A stretch of DNA of 64,000 nucleotides. Source: Allocoleopsis franciscana PCC 7113 (GTDB taxonomy: Bacteria; Cyanobacteriota; Cyanobacteriia; Cyanobacteriales; Coleofasciculaceae). The stretch is taken from NCBI RefSeq assembly GCF_000317515.1, contig NC_019738.1, positions 6,722,001 through 6,786,000 on the forward strand, in the 5' to 3' direction. How positions within the stretch are numbered: position 1 is the stretch's first letter; every line of letters begins with the position of its first letter. This document shows positions 37,296 to 42,132 of this stretch, piece by piece. The translations under genes and the position numbers were made by a program. The notes below the pieces were generated by a model, which worked only from the letters and a program-made list of their open reading frames with translations, was not told the DNA's origin and ran no database searches.

Positions 37296-37976
37296 TTAAC
37301 CTTCTGCTAAGACTATCAAACGCTCTCGATTTAACAACTGAATCTTAGAACCCTCGATCGCAATCAACCCATCTTGACTCATCTTGGCAAACACCCGCGA
37401 GAGAGTTTCCGGAATCGTCCCCAAAAAAGCCGCCAATTGAGTCTTGGTCATATCGAGTTCTACTTCATTGCTTTGGTCATTGCGATCGCTCAAATACAGC
37501 AAATAAACTGCCAGTCGTCCTGGCACTTCTTTAAATGAAAGATTTTCAATAATCTGGGCAAATCGGCGCAAGTGACGGGCGAAAATTGCCAGTATATTAA
37601 TAGTTAGAGTTGGGTGCTGTTCTAGGAGTGCCAAAAACTCAGTTCGGGGAAAAAATAATAACTCACTTTTCTCAATAGCCGCCGCTGAGGCGGGGAAACA
37701 TTGCCCATCAAATGCCGGTACTTCAGCAAAATGCTCTCCAGCTCCAAACAAATGTAAGATTTGTTCTTTCCCTTCAATCGAGAGCTTATAAACTTTAACT
37801 CGACCCGACTTGACCACAAAAAATCCCCGACCTTCATCCCCATCCTCAAAAATGACTTTACCTTTAGGATAGGTTTGTGCGATCGCAATTTTAGCTAACG
37901 CATCCAATTGGTCTTCTGGTAGACCCCGCCACAGTTGAACAGTAGCTAAAAATTTACGAAGTTCAGAGGCTTGCAT
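37296..37976 (-). CDS. Crp/Fnr-family transcription regulator
   Basis: A 226-residue Crp/Fnr regulator with an N-terminal cyclic-nucleotide-binding-type beta roll (about 15-125, GKVIFEDGDEGRGFFVVKSGRVKVYK), a dimerisation helix and a C-terminal winged helix. The recognition helix GTIPETLSRVFAKM carries the E..SR signature that in FNR, FixK and DNR reads TTGA half-sites. It lacks the N-terminal cysteines of oxygen-sensing FNR, so it may sense NO or redox through another cofactor, as DNR/HcpR proteins do. A TTGA-N6-TCAA palindrome lies upstream of hcp 1 kb away, the probable target. Confidence 0.88.
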   Translation of the reverse strand: MQASELRKFLATVQLWRGLPEDQLDALAKIAIAQTYPKGKVIFEDGDEGRGFFVVKSGRVKVYKLSIEGKEQILHLFGAGEHFAEVPAFDGQCFPASAAAIEKSELLFFPRTEFLALLEQHPTLTINILAIFARHLRRFAQIIENLSFKEVPGRLAVYLLYLSDRNDQSNEVELDMTKTQLAAFLGTIPETLSRVFAKMSQDGLIAIEGSKIQLLNRERLIVLAEG

Positions 37977-38048
37977 CGAACATCCTCAAACGTTGACCGC
38001 TTTGATTTTGCATCCTTACTGGTTGAGGATATCATTTTTTAGAAGCGT

Positions 38049-38669
38049 TCATTGACCACAGTAGCCTAGATTGTCTGAACGTACAAAGCCGCTTATCGGT
38101 GTTTCAATGGGCACCCAACCGTTAACACCCTCGTTGGCGATAAACACCCTCTGATTTTCATCGAGTGTTCCAACTACCTCACCATCGGGTTTGGAACGAA
38201 CGGCTAGATTGGGAGAAACAGCCCTACGGCAATTACTGCCCGGTACAGTAGAAATCCTTTCACCTGCTATAGGATTTGGCATTGTTTGAGCCATAGGTGT
38301 TTGAGTCATGGGTTGGGGTGGTACTGCTGCTCCAGCACAGTAGTTCAAATACCTGGCAAATACATAACCATCCATGGGGCCTGAAATACTGACCCATCCA
38401 TTCATCGGCTCACCGGAAATATTAACATTTTGTCCATTCTGTAATGTACCAATTACTTGTCCCCCCGGTTGCTGACGAACGTTAAGGGCTGTATTAACAT
38501 CTACTTCTCGGCAGCTAGTTCCAGTGGCTTGCGCGACCTGATATCCATCGGAAGTCTGGGATAATGATGGGGCTTGATTAGCCATGGAAGTCTTAGGGAA
38601 GATTGCCAATCCTAAGGAAGATAAGGCAGTAACTCCCAAGATTTGCCAACGATTTTTCTTGAATTTCAT
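38049..38669 (-). CDS. secreted protein with two bacterial SH3 domains
   Basis: A 206-residue protein with an N-terminal signal peptide (WQILGVTALSSLGLAIFP) and two SH3_3-type repeats: DVNTALNVRQQPGGQVIGTL about 58-77 and SPNLAVRSKPDGEVVGTL about 152-169. Each is followed by GWVSI/GWVPI and YVFARYLNYC/FVRSDNLGYC. The matching cysteines in both repeats suggest a disulfide in each. Bacterial SH3 domains often bind peptidoglycan, so it likely acts in the periplasm or at the cell wall. It lies between the Crp/Fnr gene and hcp but on the minus strand. Confidence 0.88.
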   Translation of the reverse strand: MKFKKNRWQILGVTALSSLGLAIFPKTSMANQAPSLSQTSDGYQVAQATGTSCREVDVNTALNVRQQPGGQVIGTLQNGQNVNISGEPMNGWVSISGPMDGYVFARYLNYCAGAAVPPQPMTQTPMAQTMPNPIAGERISTVPGSNCRRAVSPNLAVRSKPDGEVVGTLDENQRVFIANEGVNGWVPIETPISGFVRSDNLGYCGQ

Positions 38670-38876
38670 GAGAACAATTTTTCCTTTTAGTGCTTCTATC
38701 TAATTCCCTATTTTCCAGAAGATTTTATCTATCTCATCTATCTCAAGTTGAATAATTTTTATTGTTTGTTGCAATGAATACAAACCTCTAACTAAAGACA
38801 GAAACCTAAAATTTGTTGAGAGTAAATTATCCGATCAGTATTTGTAGGGGTAATCCTTCCGTAGTTGCCCCGTAAT

Positions 38877-38908
38877 GCTGAGGAGCTGGGGTGCTGAGGA
38901 GCTGGGGA
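38877..38908. repeat. tandem 16-bp duplication
   Basis: Two near-identical copies of GCTGAGGAGCTGGGG(T/A) lie at 38877-38892 and 38893-38908. Short tandem repeats of this kind are common in filamentous cyanobacteria. No function is indicated. Confidence 0.7.
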
Positions 38909-38963
38909 GTTGGTTAGTTATGTTCGCCAGTCTGCACTACTGAGAAAGGCAATTTCCGCAAGA

Positions 38964-38977
38964 TTGACTTAAGTCAA
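38964..38977 (+). promoter_or_regulatory. Crp/Fnr (TTGA-N6-TCAA) operator upstream of hcp
   Basis: TTGACTTAAGTCAA is a perfect 14-bp palindrome with the TTGA/TCAA half-sites read by FNR, FixK and DNR type regulators. Its centre is about 66 bp before the hcp ATG and about 41 bp before a start point estimated from TAGAGT at 39000. That position fits class II activation, but the start point itself is inferred. Confidence 0.7.
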
Positions 38978-39036
38978 GGCGCTTTCCTTTGACCAATCCT
39001 AGAGTAGGCATAGATGAGACAAGAAGGAAGTGAGCT

Positions 39037-40671
39037 ATGTTTTGCAGCCAGTGTGAACAAACCGCCAGAGGACAAGGATGCGAGCAATGGGGCGCTTGTG
39101 GTAAAAGTCCAGAAGTCGATGCACTACAAGATTTGTTGACCCACTGCCTGCGCGGACTCGGAGAAGTGGCGCTAGCAGCTCATCAGTTGGGTATCCGTAG
39201 CCGCGAAGCCGATGTCTTTAGCTGTGAAACGCTCTTTTCTACCTTAACGAACGTTAACTTTGACCCAGAGTGTTTTGTCCAGTATATTCAGCGTGCGATC
39301 GCACTGCGTGATGATTTAAAAGCGAAAATTCAACTCACTGGTACACCCGTAGAATTTACTGCTCTCTCATCCTTCCAACCGGCTGACACTCTCGAAGCCT
39401 TAGTCCAACAAGGTAAAGATATCGAATTCGAGTTTATCAGCAGTTCTGCCAAAAACGTCGATATTTTCTCCCTGAAACTCACCATCCTTTACGGACTCAA
39501 AGGGATTGCCGCCTACGCCTATCACGCCCAAGAATTGGGTCAAGAAGATGACCGCGTTTATAACTTCTGCCACGAAGCCTTAGCCGCACTCGGTCGCCAA
39601 GACATCAGCCTCGATGAGTGGGTCAATATGGCGCTGAAGTTGGGCGAAATCAACCTACGAGTGATGGAACTCCTCGACGCCGGCAACACCAGCACTTACG
39701 GTCATCCTGTCCCTACCTCGGTTCCCCTCAATGCCAAGCAAGGCAAAGCCATCCTGATTTCGGGACACGACCTCAAACACCTGGAAGAACTCCTCAAACA
39801 AACCGAAAATACGGGAATTTCCATCTACACCCACGGGGAAATGCTACCCGCTCACGGCTACCCCCGCTTAAAGCAGCAATACCCCCATCTTTACGGGCAT
39901 TACGGCACCGCATGGCAGAATCAAGTTCGGGAATTTGCTCAATTTCCTGGGCCTATTGTGATGACCACCAATTGCTTGATGCCGCCTCATGATGCTTACA
40001 GTAACCGCGTTTTCACCCTTGGCCCGGTTGGTTGGCCTGGACTTAAGCACCTAGAAACCGATGACTATACCTCTGTTATCCAACAAGCGTTAGAACTGCC
40101 AGGGTTTACCGCTGATGGCGAACCGCGCCAAGTCCTAACCGGTTTTGCTCGCAACGCCGTCCTCAGTGTGGCGGGTGAAGTGATTGAAGCCGTCAAACGG
40201 GGAGATATTCGCCACTTCTTCTTAGTCGGCGGTTGTGATGGTGCCAAGTCAGGGCGTAGTTACTACAGCGAGTTTGTAGAAAAAGTACCTCAAGACTGCG
40301 TGGTGCTGACTCTTGCTTGCGGTAAGTTCCGCTTCTTCGACAAAGACTTAGGAGATATTGGTGGTATTCCCCGCTTAATGGATGTGGGTCAATGCAACGA
40401 TGCTTACTCCGCGATTCAGATTGCTCTAGCGTTGGCGAATGCCTTCAATGTAGATGTGAATCAGTTGCCCTTGTCCATGATTCTTTCTTGGTACGAACAG
40501 AAAGCTGTATCGATTTTGCTGACACTCCTGTATCTGGGAATTCAGGATATCCGCTTAGGGCCAACGCTGCCAGCGTTTATTTCACCAAATGTGTTTAAAT
40601 TACTATCGGAAAAATACAACCTTAAGCCCATTACAACGCCGGATCAGGATTTAGCAGCTTGTCTGGGTTAA
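39037..40671 (+). CDS. hcp: hydroxylamine reductase / hybrid cluster protein
   Basis: A 544-residue hybrid cluster protein. The N-terminal cysteines C3, C6, C15 and C21 (spacing C-X2-C-X8-C-X5-C, as in Desulfovibrio-type class I Hcp) bind the first iron-sulfur cluster. Later conserved segments include VGGCDGAKSGRSYYSEF and LTLACGKFRFF, which carry hybrid-cluster cysteine ligands. The enzyme reduces hydroxylamine to ammonia or NO to N2O and protects against nitrosative stress in low oxygen. It has its own terminator at 40741. The Crp/Fnr gene 1 kb upstream and the palindrome before the gene suggest it is switched on by NO or anaerobiosis. Confidence 0.95.
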   Translation: MFCSQCEQTARGQGCEQWGACGKSPEVDALQDLLTHCLRGLGEVALAAHQLGIRSREADVFSCETLFSTLTNVNFDPECFVQYIQRAIALRDDLKAKIQLTGTPVEFTALSSFQPADTLEALVQQGKDIEFEFISSSAKNVDIFSLKLTILYGLKGIAAYAYHAQELGQEDDRVYNFCHEALAALGRQDISLDEWVNMALKLGEINLRVMELLDAGNTSTYGHPVPTSVPLNAKQGKAILISGHDLKHLEELLKQTENTGISIYTHGEMLPAHGYPRLKQQYPHLYGHYGTAWQNQVREFAQFPGPIVMTTNCLMPPHDAYSNRVFTLGPVGWPGLKHLETDDYTSVIQQALELPGFTADGEPRQVLTGFARNAVLSVAGEVIEAVKRGDIRHFFLVGGCDGAKSGRSYYSEFVEKVPQDCVVLTLACGKFRFFDKDLGDIGGIPRLMDVGQCNDAYSAIQIALALANAFNVDVNQLPLSMILSWYEQKAVSILLTLLYLGIQDIRLGPTLPAFISPNVFKLLSEKYNLKPITTPDQDLAACLG

Positions 40672-41948: not shown

Positions 41949-42087
41949 AATTCAGGCGGTGGAACACAAGGAGCATCCCGAATTTGCCAATGCACATTTT
42001 TCATGCCCCTTAATTCTCCCCAATGTCTTATATCATGTCCGGCTAAACAGCCATCATGTCCTTTTACCTTGCAACCTTCCTCCTTCT

Positions 42088-42132
42088 CTTCTGCCTTCTG
42101 CCTTCTGCCTTCTGCCTTCTGCCTTCTGCCTT
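42088..42132. repeat. heptamer tandem repeat (CTTCTGC)n
   Basis: Six perfect copies of CTTCTGC (42088-42129) followed by a partial CTT. This is a cyanobacterial short tandemly repeated repetitive (STRR-type) sequence. It lies in a non-coding gap of about 286 bp between the ATPase gene and msrA. Confidence 0.9.

Follow-up and report, generated by a model that had tools for sequence, protein, structure and literature searches.

Does the Crp/Fnr-type regulator encoded beside hcp in Allocoleopsis franciscana PCC 7113 control this gene, which is linked to nitric oxide defence, and, if so, through which site and in which direction? The question was addressed in a window of 64,000 nucleotides, the whole stretch of DNA analysed, whose relevant features are listed in Table 1. 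Over its full length, the hcp product matched the hydroxylamine reductase/Hcp equivalog (802 bits, cut-off 367), and its N-terminal cysteines are arranged as C3-x2-C6-x8-C15-x5-C21, a C-x2-C-x8-C-x5-C pattern that we take to be the class I spacing. In this window the regulator and hcp do not form a directly divergent pair, because an ORF with an SH3 domain, codirectional with the regulator and 72 bp upstream of it, stands between the two genes. In a genome of the same genus (G001), the regulator faces hcp across about 150 bp, and no SH3 ORF lies in between. Elsewhere in the window, a short tandem repeat of CTTCTGC-type units (42087-42132) separates an AAA ORF from an ORF which, from reading the sequence, we presume to be methionine sulfoxide reductase-like.

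Table 1. Features of the regulator-hcp locus, in window coordinates.
Feature	Position	Strand	Basis or remark
HcpR/Dnr-type Crp/Fnr regulator, 226 aa	37296..37976	-	ORF and domain search
SH3-domain ORF between regulator and hcp	38049..38669	-	Domain search
Predicted operator TTGACTTAAGTCAA, perfect TTGAC-N4-GTCAA palindrome	38964..38977	+	Pattern scan
Predicted -10, TAGAGT	39000..39005	+	22 nt after operator
hcp, hybrid cluster protein, 544 aa	39037..40671	+	ATG at 39037

Domain searches revealed that the regulator has the Crp/Fnr architecture of cyanobacterial HcpR, with cNMP_binding and HTH_Crp_2 domains, and that its recognition helix (TIPETLSR) carries the E..SR signature of DNR-type helices as PETLSR. 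The only cysteine, at position 93, is not conserved, and thus the protein lacks the FNR-type cysteines of an Fe-S sensor, as the earlier note had stated. A Phe-Pro pair aligns with the Arg-Ser of the phosphate-binding cassette in the Crp-family protein 4ev0, so that the CRP-type cassette was not recognised in this indirect comparison, made via 4ev0. None of the Cys, His or Met residues is the same in all 38 regulator orthologues, the best conserved being His135 (in 31) and His75 (in 28), and hence none of them supports heme or Fe-S sensing; the same note had likewise assigned no sensing cofactor. A heme sensor may nevertheless be present, since ligation does not require a strictly conserved side chain; heme sensing has been reported for DNR. 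The AlphaFold model of the regulator has a mean pLDDT of 62.5, with much of the sensor domain below 50.

The perfect TTGA-N6-TCAA that the note had placed upstream of hcp was recovered as the longer palindrome TTGACTTAAGTCAA, an operator of the TTGACnnnnGTCAA type described for cyanobacterial HcpR. When the first base of TAGAGT is taken as -12, the palindrome is centred (38970.5) at -41.5 and transcription is predicted to start near 39012. No recognisable -35 element precedes this -10 in the window, the hexamer at 17-bp spacing being AGGCGC, far from TTGACA, which fits a promoter that depends on an activator. Upstream regions of hcp, 250 bases each, were then compared in 56 genomes, 30 with and 26 without an orthologue of the regulator. 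All 30 upstream regions from genomes with the orthologue contain the operator, with no mismatch (18) or one (12), at 70-97 nt before the hcp ATG among the regions listed. In 29 of these 30 a TANNNT element follows, at a distance of 22 nt in 19 and of 23 nt in 10; no other spacing between 10 and 34 nt has more than one such element. Of the 14 positions of the site, nine are invariant (up to 2 bits) and the remaining ones hold 1.2-1.65 bits, against less than 0.5 bit in most columns of the flanks. The class II position claimed for this site, centred near -41.5 and fixed relative to the -10, is therefore found across many families, with the start itself being predicted.

The same geometry bears on the direction of control. 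Repression of hcp at the operator, relieved by NO, would follow the model for HcpR2 of D. desulfuricans, which is held to repress hcp (PMC5701242), and a protein bound over the -35 region could block the polymerase. Repression does not need a -10 held at exactly 22-23 nt in 29 of 30 promoters, whereas class II activation does, and a usable -35 is absent in the window, which makes the regulator an unlikely repressor of hcp and leaves class II activation as the preferred reading.

About one quarter of 97 relatives, as well as 25 non-basal genomes of the 386-genome phylum sample, encode an orthologue of the regulator, with about 46-83% identity over most of the protein; other Crp/Fnr matches in the relatives had E-values of about 1e-21 or weaker. 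Where the orthologue is absent, none of the 26 hcp upstream regions contains the operator, the best candidates having 2-4 mismatches. The difference between 30/30 and 0/26 gives a Fisher p of 1.5e-16, a value that treats related genomes as independent; when 54 Hcp proteins are placed on a tree, the presence of the regulator changes only about four times, and the three independent pairs on supported branches of this tree are all concordant, too few for significance. The operator is also kept in seven genomes in which regulator and hcp are unlinked (G024, G027, G046, G055, G077, G093, and G399), and therefore linkage does not explain its conservation. In one locus (L109, G064) the regulator is degraded and the only hcp in the genome is a fragment with a stop, so that both seem to have decayed together.

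A scan of the 386 genomes of the phylum for TTGACTTAAGTCAA followed by N22-23 and TANNNT returned 11 matches in 10 genomes, and none for the reversed-pattern control in the same genomes. Six of the matches lie before hcp (G000, G027, G043, G073, G159, and G387), four before norB (G026, G027, G346, and G393), and one before a truncated haemoglobin gene (G311). All 10 genomes encode the regulator, the copy in G311 being short or broken. The assignment of NorB was based on its COX1 and NorB_cytochrome_c-like domains, and that of the truncated haemoglobin on a Bac_globin domain, with one representative searched in each case. In another genome (G405), the gene next to that of the globin encodes a RIC-type protein for Fe-S repair (TIGR03652, 254 bits, cut-off 205). 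No norB was found in the genome of the window with a query that found it in 8 of 20 genomes searched. As the targets are nitrogen-oxide genes, NO would be the most probable signal, and the nature of these targets is the main ground for proposing it. In L093 (about 6765) and L094 (about 7619), from G055 and G077, a perfect operator was also observed between the regulator and an ORF resembling a methyltransferase, with TAAGCT 22 nt downstream of it towards that ORF, which may represent a further target; G011 holds a second TTGACTTAAGTCAA (G011:C102:24036-24049) besides the one before hcp.

The linkage and co-occurrence of the regulator with hcp or norB match what is described for cyanobacterial HcpR, and they also bear on which protein would read the site. 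The operator could be real and be bound by another Crp/Fnr protein of the cell, since 11 other proteins or domains of the superfamily are encoded in the genome, weakly similar and several of them without a DNA-binding match. However, the operator goes together with orthologues of this regulator only (30/30 versus 0/26 before hcp and 11/11 in the phylum scan), also when unlinked, so that another binder seems quite improbable, even more so than repression. NtcA reads GTA-N8-TAC, a pattern absent here by inspection. The pairing of this regulator with this operator, as proposed in the earlier note, is thus borne out by co-occurrence, conservation, and the fixed -10 spacing across many families.

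The bare TTGA-N6-TCAA was rejected as evidence, since its frequency is near chance in the window (4 occurrences, 2.58 expected). It occurs 513 times in the whole genome (G000) versus 247 for the reversed pattern, and the longer TTGAC-N4-GTCAA is no more frequent in the 7.97-Mb genome than its reversed control (14 occurrences of each). Only one of these 14 sites, the one before hcp, has TANNNT 22 or 23 nt downstream on either strand, and this uniqueness, together with the conservation in 30/30 versus 0/26 upstream regions, lifts the hcp site above chance. That the palindrome arose by chance and has no function, as the common TTGA-N6-TCAA and the control-level TTGAC-N4-GTCAA might suggest, is scarcely credible, and the conservation at a fixed position within divergent upstream regions and the unique combination of operator and -10 argue strongly against it on the sequence evidence. 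A wider regulon in this genome was considered and rejected, as the 13 other TTGAC-N4-GTCAA sites have no -10 at 22-23 nt. A looser search for TTGA-N6-TCAA with a -10 gave 31 places versus 13 in controls, the other matches being without the TTGAC/GTCAA core. From these patterns, hcp appears to be the only strong target of the regulator in this genome.

Taken together, the regulator is probably an HcpR/Dnr-type, nitrogen-oxide-responsive class II activator of hcp that acts through TTGACTTAAGTCAA at -41.5. On sensing nitrogen oxides, NO being the likeliest of them, a regulator dimer would bind the operator and activate hcp, the bound site replacing the missing -35 and the regulator contacting RNA polymerase, which would read the -10 TAGAGT. 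In relatives, the same operator would also serve norB and the truncated haemoglobin gene, with ric adjoining in one genome. The parts of the system, their geometry, their conservation and their co-occurrence are observed; from them we infer binding, the direction of its effect, and the NO signal. The case rests mainly on the phylum scan and on how well the site is conserved compared with its scrambled flanks. The predicted switch is real and conserved, and its anatomy gives good support to the proposed mechanism.

The pair is probably the system of Rodionov et al. (2005) in another lineage, and its kind had already been predicted. These authors predicted cyanobacterial HcpR in Anabaena variabilis and Synechocystis, a Crp/Fnr regulator linked to hcp or norB with TTGACnnnnGTCAA before its target as found here, HcpR (Avar17201) being divergent to hcp in the former and slr0449 to norB in the latter (PMC1274295). 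The slr0449-norB layout was seen in G026 and others. The present locus differs in the SH3 ORF that separates regulator and hcp; the layout is now tested over 56 hcp upstream regions, and in relatives the targets further include the truncated haemoglobin gene. As slr0449 is called dnr in PMC5318462, the names HcpR and dnr point to the same thing. Among solved structures, DNR of Pseudomonas aeruginosa (PDB 3dkw) is the best match of the regulator-family profile (2e-45); its helix is PETFSR compared with PETLSR here, and its operator, TTGATnnnnATCAA, is nearly the same (PMC1274295), but it serves denitrification genes, and its long branch in the regulator tree is placed with little certainty. HcpR of Porphyromonas gingivalis (PDB 9DAY) resembles the protein proposed here in being a Crp/Fnr protein that activates hcp under stress from NO or nitrite (PMC12750200), although it is more distant (52 bits versus 95 for DNR), belongs to Rodionov's HcpR2 branch and has another operator. 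Its heme ligand is Met68 (PMC12750200), and no invariant methionine matches this residue in the 38 orthologues. The idea of a DNR/HcpR-like nitrosative-stress switch thus stands as to its family, with DNR as the best solved structure and the orthologues of 2005 named HcpR, while its NO signal is read from the target genes alone. The literature search found no experimental test of the control of cyanobacterial hcp by this regulator.

One argument of the earlier note proved weaker than stated, namely that the E..SR signature reads TTGA. Although PETLSR is present, the regulators linked to norB or glbN all group in a single clade (support 100/99), in which PATLSR replaces the PETLSR of the hcp-linked regulators, with Ala instead of Glu. 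Members were observed in G026, G027 (C40), G078, G393, G307, G346, and G405, as well as L108, L110, L104, L163, L164, L165, and L167. The promoters of this clade carry TTGACTTAAGTCAA or a near variant with a -10 at 22-23 nt, the operators, where found (not in L104), being identical to TTGACTTAAGTCAA or a one-base variant. Because the Ala clade keeps the same operator, the recognition-helix Glu is apparently not required for it. The specificity position of the helix is discussed in PMC1274295, and the Ala clade runs against a literal E..SR rule.

There is a small chance that the locus holds something beyond the known kind, namely a switch by which an oxygenic phototroph would control one single target in response to nitrogen oxides, with a sensor whose lack of conserved Cys, His or Met would imply a cofactor or ligand undescribed for HcpR/DNR, and an operator code that would tolerate Ala for Glu in the norB-linked sister clade. 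With the present analysis, a prediction made in 2005 from two genomes becomes a regulon with a precise promoter geometry across several families, and the fact that the operator stays the same when Ala replaces Glu speaks against a simple recognition code in this family of regulators.
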